A program made the position numbers and the translations under genes. A stretch of 64,000 nucleotides of DNA. It comes from Rubrivivax sp. (GTDB lineage: Bacteria; Pseudomonadota; Gammaproteobacteria; Burkholderiales; Burkholderiaceae_C). This document shows positions 6,448 to 62,650 of this stretch, in pieces. The stretch is taken from positions 1 to 64,000 of the forward strand of contig JADCGP010000039.1 of the NCBI GenBank assembly GCA_020248915.1, written 5' to 3'. The notes below the pieces were generated by a model. That model was not told the DNA's origin, searched no databases, and saw nothing but the letters and a program-made list of their open reading frames with translations. The number at the start of each line of letters is the position of its first letter. Within the stretch, counting starts at the first letter, position 1.

Positions 6448-7671
6448 TCAGGCGGCAGCCGGCTGCCGCTGCGCAGCCAGACGTTCGAACACGGGCACGT
6501 AGTGCGAAGCCGAGCGGCGCCAGTTGCGCTCTTCCTCGACGAAGCGGCGTCCGGCGGCGCGCACGGCAGGCGCGGCGCCAGGCTGGGACAGCACCTCGGC
6601 CAGCGTGGTGGCCAGCGCCTGCGCGTCGCCGGCCGCGAACAGCCAGCCGGTCTCGCGGTGCCGGATCAGCTCGCGGTGGCCGCCCACGTCGCTGGCCACC
6701 AGCAGCCGCCCCTGCGCCATGGCCTCCAGCGGCTTGAGCGGCGTCACCAGGTCGGTCAGGCGCATCGGGTGGCGCGGGTACGCCAGCACGTCCACCAGGT
6801 CGTAGTAGCGCTGCACCTGATCGTGCGGCACGCGGCCCGTGAACACCACGCGCTCGGCCACGCCCAGGCGCTGCGCCCGGGTCCGCAGCGCTTCGTCCTG
6901 CGGGCCGCCGCCCACCAGCAGCAGGCGCACCTGCGGGCGCATGCGCGCCAGCGCCGGCAGCGCGTCGAGCAGCAGGTCCAGGCCCTCGTAGGCGTAGAAC
7001 GACCCGATGAAACCCACGACCTCGGCACCTTCCAGTCCCAGCCGGCGTTTCAGGTCGGGATCGGCTGCGCCGCCCAGCGTGAAGGCGTCGATGTCCACCG
7101 CGTTCGGGATCACCGTGACGCGGCCGGCGGCGATGCCGCGCTCGACGATGTCGCGCCGCAGCCCCTCGCAGATCGTGAACACGTGGTCGGCCTGGCGCAG
7201 TGCGCGCGTCTCCATCGCGCGCGTCAGCCGGTAGCGCAGGCTGCCCTCGGTGGTGGTGCCGTGGTCGACCGCGGCGTCCTCCCAGAAGGCGCGCACCTCG
7301 TAGACCATCGGGATGCCCAGGCGCCGGGCCACGCGCAGCGCGGGCAGCGCGTCCAGCACCGGCGAGTGGGCGTGGATCAGGTCGGGGCGCACGGCTGCCG
7401 CCACCGACTCGATGCGCGCGGCAAGCTGTCTCATCAGCGCCATCTCGTCGAGCCCCGGCACACGGCGCCCGCCGGGTGCGGCCGGCGTGCGATGGAAGTG
7501 CCAGCCGTCCACCGTCTCCTCCAGCGCCGTGCCGCCGGCAGCGTGCTTGGGGCTGGTCAGGTGGAAGGTCTCCCACCCGAGCGCGCGCTGCTCGCGCAGC
7601 AACGCCAGCGTGCGGAACGTGTACCCGCTGTGCAGCGGGATCGAGTGGTCGAGGACGTGGAGGATGCGCAT
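6448..7671 (-). CDS. PEP-CTERM/XrtA-associated glycosyltransferase (TIGR04063-like)
   Basis: MRILHVLDHSIPLHSGYTFRTLALLREQRALGWETFHLTSPKH signature N-terminus plus GT4 C-terminal motifs. Confidence 0.85.
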   Translation of the reverse strand: MRILHVLDHSIPLHSGYTFRTLALLREQRALGWETFHLTSPKHAAGGTALEETVDGWHFHRTPAAPGGRRVPGLDEMALMRQLAARIESVAAAVRPDLIHAHSPVLDALPALRVARRLGIPMVYEVRAFWEDAAVDHGTTTEGSLRYRLTRAMETRALRQADHVFTICEGLRRDIVERGIAAGRVTVIPNAVDIDAFTLGGAADPDLKRRLGLEGAEVVGFIGSFYAYEGLDLLLDALPALARMRPQVRLLLVGGGPQDEALRTRAQRLGVAERVVFTGRVPHDQVQRYYDLVDVLAYPRHPMRLTDLVTPLKPLEAMAQGRLLVASDVGGHRELIRHRETGWLFAAGDAQALATTLAEVLSQPGAAPAVRAAGRRFVEEERNWRRSASHYVPVFERLAAQRQPAAA

Positions 7672-7828
7672 TCAGCACCGCCCGGCCGGTCCGAAGGTGC
7701 TGAACGCCCCCTCGGGGGGCCGCGAACGAAGTGAGCGTGGGGGCATCATTTCAGCACCGCCCGGCCGTTCCGAAGGTGCTGAATGCCCCCTCGGGGGGCC
7801 GCGAACGAAGTGAGCGTGGGGGCTGCAT
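7671..7828. repeat. two-copy tandem direct repeat, 79-bp period, with inverted repeats in each unit
   Basis: Copy 1 starts 7671, copy 2 starts 7750; each has TTCAGCACC...GGTGCTGAA and GCCCCCTCGGGGGGC followed by CGCGAACGAAGTGAGCGTGGGGGC; only a few differences. Confidence 0.9.
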
Positions 7829-24609: not shown

Positions 24610-25341
24610 TCAGGTCGCGCTGCGCCGGCGCAGCGCGCCGATACCCAAGAGACCCAGGCCCATCAGGGCGATCGTGCCTGGAGCCGAGACGCGGTTGAGC
24701 GACTCGACCTTGACCACCATGTCGTTGAAGTCGTTGTCGCCGCCGTCCTCGAAACCGAAGATCCAGTTCGTGGCGCCGTCGGTGTAGGACATGAACCGGG
24801 TCTCGCCGTTGATCATGTCGAGTGAGTAGCCAGTGGTGTTCCCGCTCCGGAAATAGAACCCAAAGTTACCCGTCGAAATCCGGGCATCGGTAATGCCCGA
24901 AACACCCGTGCAGTTGATCGCCGTACCGCAGAACCCGGTGAAGCCACCGACAAACATTGTGTTGCCGCTGATGAACAGAGAGGCTGCTGCGCCGGGGTTC
25001 CCAGAAGTGGATGACCCGAGGATGAGGTCGTACTCCAGCAGATTCGTCGTGTCCGTACCGAACCAAATGCCGAACATCTGCGTGCTCGCCCCGCTCGTCT
25101 GCTCGAGCAGCAGCGTCGGGATCGTGGAAAGAGGAGACCCAGTAGCCGAACCCCAGATTCCGGCAGCGCTCTGGCCAGTGGCCTTGTTGACGCCGCCGAG
25201 ATTGCTATTCAGGATTGTCTGGATGTCGGTTTCGCCGGAAGCATTGTTGATCGGCTTCGGGCGCATGTTGTTGTCGAGGATCGGCGCCGCCATGACGCTC
25301 GCCGCACCCAGGGCCACCGCCGCAGCCACCACAGTCTTCAT
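24610..25341 (-). CDS. PEP-CTERM-type sorting-domain protein with DUF4114-like motif
   Basis: MKTVVAAAVALGAASVMAA signal peptide; 'FGFEDGGDNDFNDMVVKVESL' DUF4114-like; C-terminal 'SAPGTIALMGLGLLGIGALRRRSAT' sorting signal. Confidence 0.85.
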   Translation of the reverse strand: MKTVVAAAVALGAASVMAAPILDNNMRPKPINNASGETDIQTILNSNLGGVNKATGQSAAGIWGSATGSPLSTIPTLLLEQTSGASTQMFGIWFGTDTTNLLEYDLILGSSTSGNPGAAASLFISGNTMFVGGFTGFCGTAINCTGVSGITDARISTGNFGFYFRSGNTTGYSLDMINGETRFMSYTDGATNWIFGFEDGGDNDFNDMVVKVESLNRVSAPGTIALMGLGLLGIGALRRRSAT

Positions 25342-25394: not shown

Positions 25395-25410
25395 AGCATT
25401 CGGTGTGCCA
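25395..25410 (-). promoter_or_regulatory. sigma-54 (RpoN) -24/-12 promoter for the PEP-CTERM gene
   Basis: Minus strand TGGCACACCGAATGCT vs TGGCACG-N4-TTGCW; GG and GC invariant with correct spacing; predicted TSS about 40 nt before the ATG at 25341. Confidence 0.75.
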
Positions 25411-25715: not shown

Positions 25716-26348
25716 ATGACAGACGACTCCGGCCACGGAGCGAACGGCTCCGGCCCGCAGGCAACGCCGAGCGGCGATGCGCCACCATCGGCAGGCCGCC
25801 GTACGGTGCTGCGCCGGGCACTGCTCACGGGCGCGCCGATACTGGTCACCCTGCACAGCGGGCCGGTCGCGGCCAAGCAGATCACGGGCACCTGCATCAA
25901 GGCCTCCGGGTTCATCTCGGTGGCCACGTTCCGCAGCCGAAACCCGACGGCGAGCACGATCTGCTCGTCGCGCGCGCTCAACGAGTGGATCTCCCTTGCC
26001 CAGGGCACGGTGACCCCTACCGCCGCCGAGGCGGTTGAACTGGCCAAGCTGCTGACGGCGTACGCGCCGGGGTTGACGCTGACCTCCTACTTCAGCAGCA
26101 AGACCGTCGCCGATGTGCTCAAGGATTCCAGCGCCAGCGCCGACGTGATGGTCCTGAAGCGCATCGTCGCGATGCTGCTGAACCTGCAGTTCGGCTATGC
26201 CCCGAACGGCGATTTCAGCTCGGGCTACCTGGTCGGCGTCTGGAACAACTTCGCTTCCAACGGCGGCAACTACGTGGTCTCGGGCATGACGTGGAACGGC
26301 ATGACCACCGCGCAGTGGCTCGATTACCTGATGAGCGTCAACGCCTGA
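25716..26348 (+). CDS. uncharacterised exported protein with Tat/Sec-like leader, first gene of HPr-rel-A cassette
   Basis: 'GRRTVLRRALLTGAPILVTLHSGPVAAK' leader; no domain recognised in the ~150-aa mature part; strong SD. Confidence 0.75.
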   Translation: MTDDSGHGANGSGPQATPSGDAPPSAGRRTVLRRALLTGAPILVTLHSGPVAAKQITGTCIKASGFISVATFRSRNPTASTICSSRALNEWISLAQGTVTPTAAEAVELAKLLTAYAPGLTLTSYFSSKTVADVLKDSSASADVMVLKRIVAMLLNLQFGYAPNGDFSSGYLVGVWNNFASNGGNYVVSGMTWNGMTTAQWLDYLMSVNA

Positions 26349-26365
26349 GCACGCCGCCGGCAGGG

Positions 26366-26710
26366 ATGCAGGCTCAGGGGCGCGGCCTGCTGGTGGTCGC
26401 GCCGATGGTCATCCGGGACTGGGGCGAAGCCAACGCCGTGGTCTACGCGCTGGACGACGCACGCACACACCTGCTGCCCGCGGCAGGTGCCGAGTTGCTG
26501 CGCTGGCTGGCGGCCGCGCCCGAAGGCGCGGAGCGCGACGAGATCATCGCCGCGTGGTCTGCAACCGACGGGGGCGGGCCGGACGGTGAGCCGGCCGACG
26601 CCGCGCACGACGCCGCGCTGCTCGCGCAGCGTGTGGACGAGCTGATCGACCGCCTGCTCGCCGCCGGGCTGCTGCGCGCGGCGGCCGGCGCCCAGCAGGC
26701 GCGGCCGTGA
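26366..26710 (+). CDS. PqqD-like (HPr-rel-A system) protein
   Basis: 'VYALDDARTHLLPAAGAELLRWLAAAPEGAERDEIIAAW...LLAQRVDELIDRLLAAGLL' PqqD/RRE-like pattern. Confidence 0.75.
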   Translation: MQAQGRGLLVVAPMVIRDWGEANAVVYALDDARTHLLPAAGAELLRWLAAAPEGAERDEIIAAWSATDGGGPDGEPADAAHDAALLAQRVDELIDRLLAAGLLRAAAGAQQARP

Positions 26711-27603
26711 GCGGCCTTCCCGCCACGGCGGCGCCCCGGCGCTTTCGCGTCGGCGCCTATGCCATCGAGGTCGGGCAGGCTCCGGCCGACGTGCTGCGCA
26801 GCATCGACCACCTGTACGGCCGCTACCCGCGCGTGGCGCCGGGCGAGTTCGTCGACTTCTCGGTGGGCGTGCGGCGCCGCCGGCTGCCGCGTCCCTGGGT
26901 GCCGCAGTCGGTGTTCGTCGTGGAGGGCGAGGAGCCGTTCAATCCGCTGCCCGGCAACCAGGGCTTCCCGCTGCTCGAGTGGGGGCTGAACTGGTGCATC
27001 TACGGGCTGTGCCATCAGCACCTGACGATCCATGCGGCGGTGCTGGAGCGCGGCGGCCGCGCCATCGTCATCCCGGCGCCTTCGGGCTCGGGCAAGAGCA
27101 CGCTGTGCGCCGGGCTGCTGTTCCGCGGCTGGCGGCTGCTGTCCGACGAGTTCGCGCTGGTGTGCCCGCGCAGCGGCGAGCTGATCCCGAACCCGCGGCC
27201 GGTGAGCCTGAAGAACGAGTCGATCGAGGTGGTGCGGCGCTTCGCCCCCGAGGCGGAGTTCGGCTCGCTGGTGCGCGACACCGTGAAGGGCGTGGTCGGC
27301 CACTTCCGCGTGCCCGACGAGGCGCTGCAGCGGGCGCGGGAGCGCGCGGCCCCGGGCTGGATCGTCGTGCCGCGCTTCACGCCCGGCCAACCGCCGACGC
27401 TGCGGCGCATGGACCGCGCGCTCGCCTTCATGCGGCTGGTGGAAAATGCCTTTGACTACGCCGTGTTCGGCCGCCAGGGCTTCGAGATGCTCGGCGCGCT
27501 GGTCGATCGCAGCCAATGCTTCACCTTCGAGTACGGCGACCTGGGCGCCGCCACCGAGTTGTTCGACCGCCTGTCGCGCGGCGACCCCGACGTCTGCGGC
27601 TGA
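26707..27603 (+). CDS. HprK-related kinase A
   Basis: 'TIHAAVLERGGRAIVIPAPSGSGKSTLCAGLLFRGWRLLSDEFALV' HprK-like P-loop; GTG start overlaps PqqD-like stop. Confidence 0.85.
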   Translation: MSGLPATAAPRRFRVGAYAIEVGQAPADVLRSIDHLYGRYPRVAPGEFVDFSVGVRRRRLPRPWVPQSVFVVEGEEPFNPLPGNQGFPLLEWGLNWCIYGLCHQHLTIHAAVLERGGRAIVIPAPSGSGKSTLCAGLLFRGWRLLSDEFALVCPRSGELIPNPRPVSLKNESIEVVRRFAPEAEFGSLVRDTVKGVVGHFRVPDEALQRARERAAPGWIVVPRFTPGQPPTLRRMDRALAFMRLVENAFDYAVFGRQGFEMLGALVDRSQCFTFEYGDLGAATELFDRLSRGDPDVCG

Positions 27604-27619
27604 CGGGCGGCGGGGTGCG

Positions 27620-28891
27620 GTGCGCCCCGCGGTGAACGGCCACCCGGCCGACCTGGTGCAGGCGGCCCTGGCCGGGGGGCCCGCGGCCCTGCCGCGCGAC
27701 GCGGCAGGCTGGTCGCTGCTGGTGGCGCAGGCCCGCACCGCCGGCCTGCTGGCCCGCGTGGCGACGCTTGCCGGCGCCACCCTCGAAGAGGACGTGGCGA
27801 CGCTTGTCGGCGCCACCCTCGAAGAGGGCGTGGCGACGCTTGTCGGCGCCACCCTCGAAGAGGGCGTGGCGACGCTTGTCGGCGCCACCCTCGAAGAGGG
27901 CGTGGCGACGCTTGTCGGCGCCACGCCCTCCCCCTCCGCCCCCTGGCCCGCCGCCGCGGCGGGCCACCTCGAGTCGGCGCTGCGCGTGGTGCGGGCGCAG
28001 CGTGCGGAGGTGGAGCGCGAACTTGGCCACCTGCGGCAGGCGCTCGCGCCGCTGGGCGCGCCGGTGGTGCTGCTCAAGGGTGCGGCCTACGTCGCTGCAG
28101 GGCTGCCGCCGGCGCGGGCCCGGGTGTTCTCGGACATCGACCTGCTGGTGCCGCAGGAGCGCCTGGGCGACGCCGAGCAGCTGCTCGGGCTGGCCGGCTG
28201 GCGCAGCACCCACCTCGACGCCTACGACCAGCGCTACTACCGCGAGTGGATGCACGAGCTGCCGCCGATGGAGCACGCGCAGCGCGGCACCACGCTCGAC
28301 GTGCATCACGCGATCCTGCCGCGCACGTCGCGCCTGGGCTCGCCCGGGGCGGCGCTGTTCGAGGCGGCAGTGCCGCTGCCGGCGCATCCCGGCCTGAGCG
28401 TGCTCGGGCCCGAGGACATGGTGCTGCACGCGATGACGCACCTGTTCGTCAACGACGACGTGTCGCACGCGCTGCGCGACCTGTCCGACCTCGACCTCCT
28501 GCTGCGGCATTTCGGGGCCCGCCCGGGCTTCTGGGACGCCCTGCCCGGCCGCGCGGCACGGCTCGGCCTGCAGCGGCCGCTGCACTTCGGGCTGCGGCAC
28601 TGCGCAGCCCTGCTGGGCACGCCGGCGCCGGCGCCGGCCGCGGCGGCGGCAGCTGCGTTCGGGCCGGCACCGCCGGTGGCCGCGGCGGCCGACTGGATGT
28701 GGCGCCGGGCGCTGCGCCCGCAGCACCCGTCCACGCGCCTGGGCGGCCAGGGCCTGGCGCTCGCAGCGCTGTACCTGCGCGGGCACTGGCTGCGCATGCC
28801 GCTGCCGCTGCTGCTGCGGCACCTGACCGTCAAGTCGCTCAAGCGGCTGGGCGAAGCACGCGGCGACGACGCCCAGGGGGGCCGGGGCTGA
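27620..28891 (+). CDS. nucleotidyltransferase family protein (NTP_transf_5-like) with N-terminal tandem repeat
   Basis: 'VVLLKGAAYVAAGLPPARARVFSDIDLLVP' (KG...D-D nucleotidyltransferase motif), 'DVHHAILP'; GTG start at 27620 or 27632. Confidence 0.8.
   Translation: MRPAVNGHPADLVQAALAGGPAALPRDAAGWSLLVAQARTAGLLARVATLAGATLEEDVATLVGATLEEGVATLVGATLEEGVATLVGATLEEGVATLVGATPSPSAPWPAAAAGHLESALRVVRAQRAEVERELGHLRQALAPLGAPVVLLKGAAYVAAGLPPARARVFSDIDLLVPQERLGDAEQLLGLAGWRSTHLDAYDQRYYREWMHELPPMEHAQRGTTLDVHHAILPRTSRLGSPGAALFEAAVPLPAHPGLSVLGPEDMVLHAMTHLFVNDDVSHALRDLSDLDLLLRHFGARPGFWDALPGRAARLGLQRPLHFGLRHCAALLGTPAPAPAAAAAAAFGPAPPVAAAADWMWRRALRPQHPSTRLGGQGLALAALYLRGHWLRMPLPLLLRHLTVKSLKRLGEARGDDAQGGRG
27758..27925 (+). 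repeat. 36-bp in-frame tandem repeat, 4 full units + 24 bp
   Basis: GTGGCGACGCTTGTCGGCGCCACCCTCGAAGAGGGC units at 27758, 27794, 27830, 27866, partial 27902; encodes VATLVGATLEEG. Confidence 0.95.
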
Positions 28892-29172: not shown

Positions 29173-30555
29173 ATGGTCCGCATCTTCCGCCACTACGTGC
29201 ACCGCGCCTCGTTGAGCAGCATGCTGTTCGACGTGGCCCTGATGATCCTGCTCGCGCTGGGGGCCGTCACGCTCCAGGTGGGCAGCCTCGACCTCGCCGT
29301 GCCGCTGGCCAGCGGGCCGGTGGCCTCCTACGCCGCCTGCATGATGCTGATCGGCAGCGCGGCCGGCCTGTACGACCCGGCGTCCGGGGCACCGCTCGGG
29401 CGCTCGGTGGCGCGGGTGCTGGCGGTGCTGTGCGTGGCGCTGCCGCTGGCGTGGCTGGTGTTCGGCCTGCTGCCAGCGGGCGTGGCCAGCCCCGGGGCCG
29501 TGCAGTTCACGGTGATGAGCGGCGTGGCCGCGCTCGTCACGCGCCGCGTGTACGTGTCGCACCGTGGCGCGGCCGCCGGCCGCCGCGCGCGGGTGCTGGT
29601 GTTCGGCACCGGCGCGGCGGCGCAGGCGGTGGGCTCCACGCTGCGCTCGGCCGACCCGTCGGCGCACATCATCGGCTACGTGCCAGGCCCCAACGAGTCG
29701 GAGCCCATGGTGGCCGCCGACGAGATCGTCGCGCTGCGCGGCACGCTCACCGAGACCGCGGGCAGGCTCGGCGTCGACGAGATCGTGGTCGCGCTCACCG
29801 AGCGCCGTGCCGGCAGCATGCCGCTGCGCGAGCTGCTCGACTGCAAGCTGGCCGGCATCCGCGTCTGGGACCTGAACAGCCACTTCGAGAAGACACTCGG
29901 CCAGATCCGCATCGACTACCTGAATGCAAGCTGGCTGATCTTCGGCGACGGCTTCAACCAGGGCGCCCTGCGCACCTTCGTCAAGCGCGCGTTCGACCTG
30001 CTCTCGGCGGGCGCCCTGCTGGTGCTGACCGCGCCGCTGATGCTGATCACTGCGCTGCTGATCCGGCTGGACAGCCGCGGCCCGGTGTTCTACCGCCAGG
30101 AGCGCGTGGGCCTGAACGGCCGCACGTTCGAGGTGACCAAGTTCCGCAGCATGCGCACCGACGCCGAGTGCGACGGCAAGCCGCGCTGGGCGAGCGCCAA
30201 CGACGACCGCGTCACGCGCGTGGGCGCGGTGATCCGCCGGTTGCGCATCGACGAGCTGCCGCAGCTGTTCAACGTGCTGCGCGGCGAGATGAGTCTGGTC
30301 GGGCCGCGCCCCGAGCGACCCTACTTCGTCGATCAGCTGACGCAGCAGATCCCGTTCTACGCCGTGCGCCACAGCGTCAAGCCGGGCGTCACGGGCTGGG
30401 CGCAGGTGCGCTACGCCTACGGCGCCACGGTCGAGGACTCGCAGCAGAAGCTGCAGTACGACCTGTACTACGTGAAGAACCACACCCTGTTCCTGGACCT
30501 GCTGGTCCTGTTCGAGACGGTGGGGGTGGTCCTGACCGGCAAGGGCGCACGCTGA
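29173..30555 (+). CDS. PEP-CTERM/XrtA polyprenyl-phosphate sugar transferase (TIGR03013-like)
   Basis: MVRIFRHYVHRASLSSMLFDVALMILLAL... N-terminal TMs, CoA-binding-like domain, 'KRAFDLLSAGALLVLTAPLMLITALLIRLDSRGPVFYRQERVG' and 'LRIDELPQLFNVLRGEMSLVGPRPERP'. Confidence 0.93.
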   Translation: MVRIFRHYVHRASLSSMLFDVALMILLALGAVTLQVGSLDLAVPLASGPVASYAACMMLIGSAAGLYDPASGAPLGRSVARVLAVLCVALPLAWLVFGLLPAGVASPGAVQFTVMSGVAALVTRRVYVSHRGAAAGRRARVLVFGTGAAAQAVGSTLRSADPSAHIIGYVPGPNESEPMVAADEIVALRGTLTETAGRLGVDEIVVALTERRAGSMPLRELLDCKLAGIRVWDLNSHFEKTLGQIRIDYLNASWLIFGDGFNQGALRTFVKRAFDLLSAGALLVLTAPLMLITALLIRLDSRGPVFYRQERVGLNGRTFEVTKFRSMRTDAECDGKPRWASANDDRVTRVGAVIRRLRIDELPQLFNVLRGEMSLVGPRPERPYFVDQLTQQIPFYAVRHSVKPGVTGWAQVRYAYGATVEDSQQKLQYDLYYVKNHTLFLDLLVLFETVGVVLTGKGAR

Positions 30556-30714
30556 GCGTGGCGGTCCCGGCGGCGGCCGCCGGCGATCGGGTTACGCTCC
30601 GGGGTTCGCGGTGGCCGCCGCTGGCAGCCCGCCGGGCGGCCGCGAGGCACCCGCCGCACCCGCCCCGGCGTCCGCCGCGGCGTACCGCAACCCCTGACAG
30701 GCCCCGAGTCCGCC

Positions 30715-32843
30715 ATGAGCACCGCCGTCTACGGCCTGGCGACGCTGGTTCACCTGCTGTTCGCCTGGTACCTGTGGCGGGCGCGCCGCAGCGGCGTGCC
30801 GGCGCCCCGGCCGGCCGGGCCCGGCGATACGGAGGCGCCGGCGGGCGCGGCGGCCGCCCCAGGCGAACTGCTGTTCCGCGGCGCCGTGCTGGCCACGGCG
30901 CTGTGGTGCGGGCTAGAGGCCGCCCGCGAGCTGACCACCGACCTCGCGTGGCTGGTGACGGCCGAGCTCGCCGACTGGCTGCGCTACGCCTCGTGGCTGC
31001 TGCTGCTGCTGGTGCTCAACGGCAGCGCGCGGCGCGGCGCGCCCGGGCCGGGCATCCGCTGGGGCGTCGGCCTGGTGCTGGCTGCAGCGCTGGCGCCGAT
31101 CGTGCTGCGCGCCGCGCTGGGCCACGTCGAGACGCCACCCGGGCAGCCGCAGCTGGTGGCGCAGCTGGCGCTGCCGCTGTTCGGGCTGTTCCTGGTGGAG
31201 CGGATGTTCCGCAGCCTGGGCGACGACTCGCGCTGGCACGCCAAGCCGATGTGCCTGGGGCTGGCGATCGTGTTCGCCTACGACGTGTTCCGGGTCTCGG
31301 AGGCGCTGATGTTCGGGGCCTGGGACGCCGACACGCGGGTGGCCCGCGGCGCGGTGCACATGCTTGCGGTGCCGGTGCTGCTGGCCGGCGCACGGCGCCG
31401 GCGCGACTGGATCCAGCGGCTGCAGGTCTCGCGGGCAGCCGCCTTCCACTCGGTGACGATGGTGCTGGCAGGGGCCTACCTGCTGCTGCTGTCGGCCTTC
31501 GGCTACTACGTGCGCTACGCCGGAGGCAGCTGGGGCCGCGCGCTGCAGATCAGCCTGGTGTGCGCGGCGCTGGCGCTGTTCGCGGCCGTGGTGCTGTCGG
31601 GCTCGCTTCGCTCGCGGCTGCGGGTCTTCGTCGGCAAGCACTTCTTCAGTTACCGCTACGACTACCGCGAGGAGTGGCTGCGCTTCACCGCGATGCTGTC
31701 GGCCGGCGGCGCCCCGCCCGAGGTGGCGCAGCGCGTGGTCCGGGGGCTGGCGAGCATGGTGGAGTGCCCGGGCGGGGCGCTGTGGCTGCGCTCGGAGGCG
31801 GGCGCGCCCTACACGCAGGTGGCGCGCTGGAACGCGGGGCGCACCGAAGAGGCCGAGCCCCCCGCGTCGGCCTTCTGCCGCTTCCTGCACGAGCGCGGCT
31901 GGGTGGTCGACCTCGACGAGTTCCGCAGCTCGCCGGCCCGCTACGACGGACTGGCGCTGCCGCACTGGCTGCTGGCCTCCTCCAACGCCTGGTTGGTGGT
32001 GCCGCTGCAGGCGGCCGACGAGCTGCTGGGCTTCGTCGTGCTGGCACGGCCGCGCACGCCGATCGACCTGAACTGGGAGGTGCTGGACCTGCTGAAGACG
32101 GCCAGCCGCCAGGCGGCCGGCCACCTGGCGCAGATGCAGGCCACCGAGGCGCTGCTGGAGGCCCGCAAGTTCGACGCCTTCAACCGCATGTCGGCCTTCG
32201 TGGTGCACGACCTGAAGAACATCGTCACCCAGCTGTCGCTGATGCTGAAGAACGCGGAACGTCTGCACGACAACCCCGAGTTTCAGCGCGACATGCTGTT
32301 GACCGTGGAGAGCTCGCTGGACAAGATGAGGCGGCTGATGCTGCAGCTGCGCGAAGGCGCGCCGCCGCCCGGTGGCGCGCGGGGCGTCGAGCTCGAGCCC
32401 CTGGTGCAGCGCCTGCAGGCGCTGGCGCGCAGCCAGGGGCGCGCGCTCGAGACGCCGGCGCTGGAGCGGCTGGCCACCCGCGGCCACGAGGACCGGCTCG
32501 AGCGCGTGCTGGGCCACCTGGTGCAGAACGCGCTCGACGCGACGCCCGCTTCGGGCCGGGTGTGGGTGAAGGTGCAGCGCGCGGGCGGCCAGGTCGGCAT
32601 CGAGATCGGGGACACGGGATCGGGGATGACGGAGGAGTTCGTGCAGACCAGGCTGTTCAAGCCCTTCAGCAGCACCAAGGGCAGCGGCATGGGCGTGGGC
32701 TCGTACGAGAGCGCGCAGTACGTGCGCGAGCTCGGCGGCTCGATCCAGGTGGCCAGCCGACCCGGCGAGGGCACGGTGCTGACCGTGACGCTGCCGCTGT
32801 TCGAGGCGCACGGGCGCGCCGAGCTGATGCGGGTGGACGCCGG

Positions 32844-32847
<4 letters not shown>
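30715..32847 (+). CDS. prsK: XrtA/PEP-CTERM system histidine kinase PrsK
   Basis: N-terminal multi-TM, GAF-like region, 'AFVVHDLKNIVTQLSLMLKNAERH-like' H-box, 'HLVQNALDATP', 'GDTGSGM' ATPase. Confidence 0.92.
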
Positions 32848-34217
<1,370 letters not shown>

Positions 34218-61310: not shown

Positions 61311-62650
61311 CCACCGCGCGCGCCACCTGCGGCGCATTGGTGCTGTGGGTCATCCCCGCGGTCTACTTCGTCTTCATCACCGCCGAGTTCGGCGCGATGA
61401 CGCACGCGGCGCTCGAGCTCACGGCGGCCGGCCGGCCCGCGCTCGAGGTGGGCGCGCTCGCGACCGCGCTGTGGGGCGGCATCCTGATGGCCAGCAGCAG
61501 CGCCCACCGGCTGGTGCAGCGCCTCGGGCACGCGCGCACCTTCGTTGCGGCCACCGCGCTGGCCACGGTGGCGCTGGCCTCGATGCCCTGGCACGCGCGC
61601 TACCCGGGCTGGCTCGCGGCCGCGTGGGCGATGGGGCTGGGCGGCGGCTGGGTCTGGGTGGCGGGCGAGGCCTGGCTGGCCGAGGCGGCCCCGCGCGAAC
61701 GGCGCGGTTTCTATGTCGGCCTGTTCGAGACGATGGTGGGCCTGGGCCTGATGGCCGGCCCGGCGCTGGTGCCGCTGACGCGCTGGCTCGCGCTGCCCAC
61801 GCTGGCGGTGGCGGCGGCGGTGATGGCGCTGGCGTGGATCGCGAGCCTGTGGCTGCTGCGCCAGCCGGCCCCGGGCGACGACGAGGACGCCGCGGCCGCG
61901 CCGGCGCCCGGTGCGGCGAGCGCGCGCGCGCTGGTGCTGCCCGTCATGGCGGTGGCCGCCACCAGCGGGCTGATGGAGAGCGGCGTCTCGGCGCTGCTGC
62001 CCTCGATCTCGATGCGGCTGGGCGCCAGCATCGAGGCGGCCGCCCTGCTCGGCACCGTCATAGGCGCCGGCAGCGCGCTGCTGCAGCCGCCGGCCGGCCT
62101 CCTGGCCGACCGCATCGGCACGCGCACCGTGCTGCTGGGTGCGTGGGCCGTGGTGCTGGTGGCCAACGCGCTGCTGCTCGCGCTGGCGGGCGACCCGGGC
62201 GCGGCCCTGTGGGGCGTCGGATTCGCGCTCGGCGGCGCCGGCGGCGCGGTCTACACCCTGCTCGTCATCGAGCTCGGACACCGCCTCGCCGGCGCGGCGC
62301 TGGTGCGCGCAGTGGCGGCACTGGTGACGAGCTACTCCGTGGGTACCGCGCTCGGGCCGGTGCTGGGCGGCTCGCTGTTCGACGGCTTCGGCCTGGCAGG
62401 CCTGGCCGCCGCGCTCGCCGCTGCCAGCGCGCTCGGCCTCGCGCTGACGCTGCGGCTGCTGCGGCCGCAGGACCCGGGGCCGCCACCGGGCGGTCGGTCA
62501 GGCGCTCAGCCGGGTGCTCAGCCGGGTGCTCAGCCGGGTGCTCAGCCGGGTGCTCAGCCGGGTGCTCAGCCGGGTGCTCAGCCGGGTGCTCAGCCGGGTG
62601 CTCAGCCGGGCGCTCAGCCGGGTGCTCAGCCTGGTTGGGGCCCGTCGTAG
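61307..62650 (+). CDS. MFS transporter with C-terminal (GAQP)n tail
   Basis: 12-TM pattern; C-terminus GAQP x11. Confidence 0.85.
   Translation: MTTARATCGALVLWVIPAVYFVFITAEFGAMTHAALELTAAGRPALEVGALATALWGGILMASSSAHRLVQRLGHARTFVAATALATVALASMPWHARYPGWLAAAWAMGLGGGWVWVAGEAWLAEAAPRERRGFYVGLFETMVGLGLMAGPALVPLTRWLALPTLAVAAAVMALAWIASLWLLRQPAPGDDEDAAAAPAPGAASARALVLPVMAVAATSGLMESGVSALLPSISMRLGASIEAAALLGTVIGAGSALLQPPAGLLADRIGTRTVLLGAWAVVLVANALLLALAGDPGAALWGVGFALGGAGGAVYTLLVIELGHRLAGAALVRAVAALVTSYSVGTALGPVLGGSLFDGFGLAGLAAALAAASALGLALTLRLLRPQDPGPPPGGRSGAQPGAQPGAQPGAQPGAQPGAQPGAQPGAQPGAQPGAQPGAQPGWGPS
62503..62634 (+). repeat. 12-bp tandem repeat, 11 copies of GCTCAGCCGGGT-type unit
   Basis: Counted 11 gctcag-initiated 12-mers with 2-3 sequence variants; encodes GAQP. 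Confidence 0.93.

Follow-up and report, generated by a model that had tools for sequence, protein, structure and literature searches.

A four-gene cassette in the XrtA locus of a Rubrivivax strain, with a predicted Tat-exported protein as the proposed substrate of a putative RRE-guided modification system

The window, a stretch of 64,000 nucleotides from Rubrivivax sp. (contig JADCGP010000039.1), holds a full XrtA exopolysaccharide (EPS) locus, and within it lies a compact run of four plus-strand genes in the order A-B1-K-N. A (25716..26348) encodes a 210-aa protein that is predicted to be exported and is the proposed substrate of the system; B1 (26366..26710) encodes a discrete RRE/PqqD-family protein of 114 aa, K (26707..27603) an HprK-related kinase A of 298 aa, and N (27620..28891) a protein of the NTP_transf_5 nucleotidyltransferase fold. 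The tight spacing described in an earlier note on this DNA is borne out by the open reading frames, with a 4-bp overlap (GTGA) between the stop of B1 and the start of K and a 16-nt gap between K and N, except that the gap between A and B1 is 17 nt and not 18. The K-N gap is counted from a GTG start at 27620, and the start of N is uncertain.

On its 5' side the cassette is preceded by genes for a TIGR03088 glycosyltransferase, a nucleotide-sugar dehydrogenase, XrtA, a FemAB protein, an ATPase and an outer-membrane protein, and also, in this order, for a tyrosine autokinase, a chain-length protein, an export protein and a PEP-CTERM protein. The embedding in the XrtA locus that had been proposed is evident from the closest neighbours. 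These are a divergent gene for a DUF4114 PEP-CTERM surface protein (24610..25341, minus strand; PF13448, TIGR02595), which has a sigma-54 -24/-12-like site, TGGCACACCGAATGC, at 25396..25410 on the minus strand, and, directly 3' of the cassette, EpsB_2, PrsK and PrsR (29173..34217, plus strand).

The enzymes are readily placed in families. TIGR04352 covers the whole of K with a score of 342 bits (cut-off 200, E 2e-102), and the residues H109, GxGKST, D147-E148, K169 and K194-G195 are essentially invariant among 121 sequences. Its core can be aligned to that of HPrK/P (1jb1) around the His, the Walker A motif and the Asp (59 columns, E 0.003). N matches PF14907 (E 3e-50) and carries the complete polymerase-beta-type set of Lys-Gly, Asp-x-Asp and Asp residues, as K153-G154, D172-x-D174 and D227, which is invariant in 113 of 113 sequences. 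The kinase and nucleotidyltransferase signatures reported earlier are thus both confirmed. In Deinococcus, the PF14907 domain is found fused to a lasso B2 protease, close to PqqD and HprK-like genes.

The PqqD-like assignment of B1 stands with a reservation, since B1 aligns with the whole TIGR04353 (PqqD_rel_X) profile but scores 26.1 bits, below the cut-off of 35. Its AlphaFold2 model (pLDDT 82) has the topology of an RRE, and the best match of the model in the PDB is the lasso RRE TbiB1 in a structure with the leader bound (5v1v; probability 1.00, TMt 0.77, E 2.5e-3). On profile and model, B1 is best described as a discrete RRE/PqqD protein.

Ahead of its catalytic domain, N contains an in-frame tandem repeat, VATLVGATLEEG, of 36 bp in about 4.7 copies with 97% match (TRF; 27756..27924, plus strand), which is likely to be length-variable. 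A search across the genome found no further copies, and a dispersed element was rejected on that basis. Elsewhere in the window, a 12-bp unit is repeated in tandem in 11 copies (62504-62635, 97% match) and a 79-bp unit occurs about twice head to tail (7671-7823, 97% match).

A is the least familiar member of the cassette. Neither the A protein of the window nor 50 relatives gave a Pfam, NCBIfam or PDB sequence match beyond chance, and membership of a known family was rejected for this reason. The AlphaFold2 model of its mature domain has a partly confident fold (pLDDT 76), and a fold search of the PDB with this model gave no match below E 2.5. What is conserved is the leader. In the window it comprises R28-A53, RRTVLRRALLTGAPILVTLHSGPVAA (25797..25874, plus strand), and is the proposed binding site for B1 as well as a predicted Tat signal. 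The twin arginine is present in 112 of 113 relatives, the sole relative without it being cut by a contig end, and in nearly all it is followed by a hydrophobic stretch; an AxA-like signal peptidase site follows in 107 of 112 leaders. A thus has a twin-arginine motif, a hydrophobic h-region and a signal peptidase site, as expected of a Tat substrate, and TatC is encoded in the genome, so that export by this route is predicted. The [YW]xxP motif associated with RRE binding is found in just 3 of 112 A leaders.

Beyond the leader the A proteins are diverse, and their serine motifs vary between classes. Shortly after the leader in the window A, a class 1 member, is a near-invariant C60-x3-S64-x3-S68 motif (25893..25919, plus strand), whose serines S64 and S68 are candidate phospho-acceptors. 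Among 74 class 1 sequences the two serine columns are 97% and 99% Ser and the cysteine column 93% Cys, with S64 invariant in alignment A2, and in most members the motif is followed by an SPGYWK...WP...LNA domain. Class 2 proteins have another short domain that ends in S-C-W-x-S-F, and their membership rests on leader and position, since they were recruited mainly through the leader. Class 3 proteins, from one alphaproteobacterial family that includes Sphingomonas, end in TCFASL, TCYASL or similar, so that classes 2 and 3 have in common a C-terminal [ST]-C-hydrophobic-x-S. Neither simple serine pattern is matched exactly by 23 of the 113 proteins. Otherwise dissimilar, the classes have one leader type in common. 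Several A copies sit apart from the K locus, with the leader and the C-terminal SC-x2-S motif kept, and two loci (L125 and L118) have two tandem A copies downstream of N and not upstream of B1.

Joint conservation of the four genes had been named beforehand as one of two points on which the idea of a system could fail, the other being matches to the HprK-like and PqqD-like models, which were obtained as described above. Across Pseudomonadota the joint conservation held. Of 120 homologous loci, 80 came from a scan of one-per-species genomes and 40 from further genomes. K and N are both present in 112 and are almost always adjacent; no N was found close to K in the remaining 8. Searches with iterated profiles located B1 in 105 of the loci and A in 109, in nearly all cases directly upstream of K on the same strand. 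Chance does not account for these frequencies, and the cassette is to be regarded as real. One clade has a TPR-sulfotransferase between K and N in three loci; in some of the related loci this gene comes after K and no N was detected nearby. The sulfotransferase (PF13469) is directly 3' of K at L037 4389-6620, L042 7392-9113 and L046 9921-11648, in class 2 clades.

The link between A and K extends to their distribution among genomes. In a set of 399, K exceeds the cut-off in 61, and two A profiles find matches in 49 of these, compared with 2 of the 338 others. Both of the K-negative matches cover the downstream domain only and lack the leader; leader-bearing A proteins were found in 0 of the 338. 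The other 12 K-positive genomes gave no A-profile match; the majority are from the alphaproteobacterial family in which the sampled loci have class 3 A. Fisher values for the co-inheritance fall as low as 1e-48, but overstate its significance because the genomes are related and do not provide independent evidence. In two K-negative genomes, at L179 3490-4386 and L180 1312-3591, the downstream domain of class 1 occurs with no leader ahead of it, and its distribution is therefore wider than that of the cassette.

The association with XrtA is pronounced but not exclusive. K is present in 25 of 35 XrtA-positive genomes, as against 36 of 364 XrtA-negative ones, and 22 of the 120 loci have EpsB2 or PrsK no more than about 10 kb away. 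The 36 K-positive genomes without XrtA above the cut-off led to rejection of a strict dependence on XrtA, and the cassette system is not confined to XrtA genomes. A sigma-54 -24/-12-like site is found upstream of A in 41 of 111 relatives, whereas randomly drawn stretches of these loci give a background of 5%; a search upstream of the window's own A detected none. In an Aquincola strain, a PEP-CTERM gene has been shown to depend on RpoN (PMC9850573). The co-occurrence with XrtA and the sigma-54 sites in relatives would connect the cassette to EPS physiology. Other settings exist. In a Sphingomonas locus (L213 1-8493) the cassette adjoins a histidine-kinase-like gene and pst genes for phosphate transport, and similar kinase-like matches flank it in four further loci (L058, L060, L062 and L063). 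Neighbours of these two kinds make a link to phosphate regulation possible.

The earlier note had proposed that an exported substrate is modified in connection with exosortase and EPS physiology, and the tendency of both A and XrtA to occur with K supports this, with the chemistry itself inferred. With moderate confidence in the mechanism as a whole, we favour an RRE-guided post-translational modification system for Tat-exported proteins. In this scheme A would carry a specialised Tat signal that also serves as a leader. B1 would grip this leader in the cytoplasm and recruit K, which would phosphorylate, and perhaps polyphosphorylate, a conserved serine. In class 1 proteins the target would be S64 or S68, just past the leader, and in the other two classes the serine of the C-terminal [ST]-C-hydrophobic-x-S. 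By analogy, N probably elaborates the phosphate within the cassette, most likely with a hexose or a nucleotidyl group, as has been inferred for PsmN. The modified A would then exit through Tat, with the leader cut off by signal peptidase, and in XrtA bacteria the cassette would operate within the sigma-54/exosortase exopolysaccharide programme. Several findings weigh against this reading: [YW]xxP is almost missing from the A leaders, 8 loci showed no N near K, the mature A domains and the serine motifs vary, and the search upstream of the window's own A found no sigma-54 site.

By the NCBIfam definitions, K is a member and B1 a near-member of the HPr-rel-A system (TIGR04352, TIGR04353), for which the libraries searched hold system-named models of the kinase and the PqqD protein only, leaving the A family uncovered. 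K is also weakly similar to ScmC of the SynChlorMet system (TIGR04249; 31.5 bits against a cut-off of 125). Scm clusters contain radical SAM enzymes, whereas no such enzyme was identified at the cassette. With HprK itself (1jb1) K has in common the catalytic core of His, Walker A and Asp; only this core aligns, and the substrate and the N-terminal half of HprK are unlike those of K.

Close functional parallels with experimental data do exist, in the linear polyphosphorylated peptides (LPP; PMC13381572) and in pseudomycoidin (PMC9266682). The LPP clusters of Bacillota (lppAKBSDN) encode a precursor, a discrete RRE, an HprK-like kinase, an NTP transferase, an SpI peptidase and an exporter, and are located in capsule loci; LppK adds several phosphates to Ser3 of the LppA core (PMC13381572). 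The cassette resembles them in its leader-bearing precursor, discrete RRE, kinase and NTP transferase, in the absence of cyclisation, in its polysaccharide-locus setting and in precursor size, LPP precursors reaching 200 aa. The target Ser3 lies close after the leader, as do the near-invariant candidates S64 and S68. The differences are that LPP, like paeninodins, are described as confined to Bacillota (PMC13381572) whereas the cassette is in Pseudomonadota, that the A leader is twin-arginine and lacks the LPP leader motif YxxPxVL, and that sigma-54 sites occur in relatives. Archaeal-type signal peptidase I (SpI/LppS, TIGR02228) is absent from the genome, and the cassette flanks that were identified are EPS/XrtA genes with no MsbA-like or other ABC exporter among them.

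In pseudomycoidin, PsmK phosphorylates the C-terminal Ser and PsmN is required for the addition of one or two hexoses to the phosphate, though PsmN may instead be a true nucleotidyltransferase (PMC9266682, PMC8498205). Paeninodin-type clusters have a tailoring set of RRE, HprK-like kinase, NTP_transf_5 and sulfotransferase (PMC8498205). These lasso systems (PsmK/PsmN, PadeK) and the cassette have in common an HprK-like kinase acting, in the cassette presumptively, on Ser, a partner of a nucleotidyltransferase family, a B1-type RRE and, in some clusters, a sulfotransferase; the substrate differs, being a short lasso core in the one and, as proposed here, a large exported protein in the other. 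LppN had no detectable activity in its heterologous host (PMC13381572) and PsmN may transfer either a hexose or a nucleotide, so that the reaction of N is weakly constrained.

Such kinship raises the question of whether the cassette is a true RiPP cluster that yields a small bioactive peptide, of lasso or LPP type, from part of A. The RRE, HprK-like kinase, NTP_transf_5 protein and, in one clade, sulfotransferase do amount to the paeninodin-type tailoring set (PMC8498205). However, the lasso B2 transglutaminase-like leader peptidase (PF13471) is absent from the genome, as is the archaeal-type SpI. Neither an asparagine-synthetase-like macrolactam cyclase nor a dedicated transporter was found among the identified genes that flank the cassette, and A itself is 210 aa long, with a domain whose predicted fold is partly confident. 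Release of a peptide is accordingly very improbable, and plain membership of the LPP or lasso systems was rejected on the absence of both peptidases.

Two further explanations keep the enzymes but change their roles, and both are unlikely. The leader may be a Tat signal only, with N nucleotidylating (AMPylating) A and K regulating or reversing this as an HPr kinase/phosphorylase-like switch. The invariance of the polymerase-beta-type residues in 113 sequences suits an active N, and published work on pseudomycoidin leaves room for nucleotidyl transfer by PsmN (PMC9266682), but all relatives that have been studied use the HprK-like kinase as their primary Ser kinase, and deletion of the N homologue lppN caused no detectable change. 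A shade less probable still is that K and N act on some other substrate, such as a polysaccharide precursor, a lipid carrier or an HPr-like protein, with A as a co-regulated secreted receptor or effector. This would fit the frequent EPS/XrtA setting (22 of 120 loci) and the sigma-54 sites, which are common to PEP-CTERM regulons. It leaves unexplained the RRE, whose known role is to bind peptide leaders, the single leader type of dissimilar A classes, and the displaced A copies, in which leader and serine motif are retained and which are confined to K-positive genomes.

What is new here is most likely the Tat-exported protein family as a proposed substrate, since the set of RRE, HprK-like kinase and NTP transferase is known already. 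A literature search found no account of a Tat-substrate version of this set, and the HPr-rel-A system neither named nor given a target in the papers it covered; the NCBI notes to TIGR04352 and TIGR04353 may mention part of the gene neighbourhood. Through the NCBI family names, the 'HPr-rel-A system' label spans many environmental Pseudomonadota, and it can now be given a proposed substrate family, a leader, candidate acceptor serines and a mechanistic precedent, enough for a direct test. A more speculative thought, which we hold only tentatively, is that bacteria have a general phosphoglycosylation of whole secreted proteins in which an RRE uses the Tat signal peptide as its leader and guides a serine kinase and a phosphate-dependent glycosyl/nucleotidyl transferase to the exported proteins. 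Were this so, the modified proteins might be attached to, or tuned for, the exopolysaccharide matrix, and secreted proteins as a class would join small peptides among the targets of RRE-guided modification. If the favoured mechanism is correct, RRE-guided phosphorylation would reach Tat-exported proteins, and the enzymology of RiPPs would be joined to the biology of exosortases, flocs and EPS.
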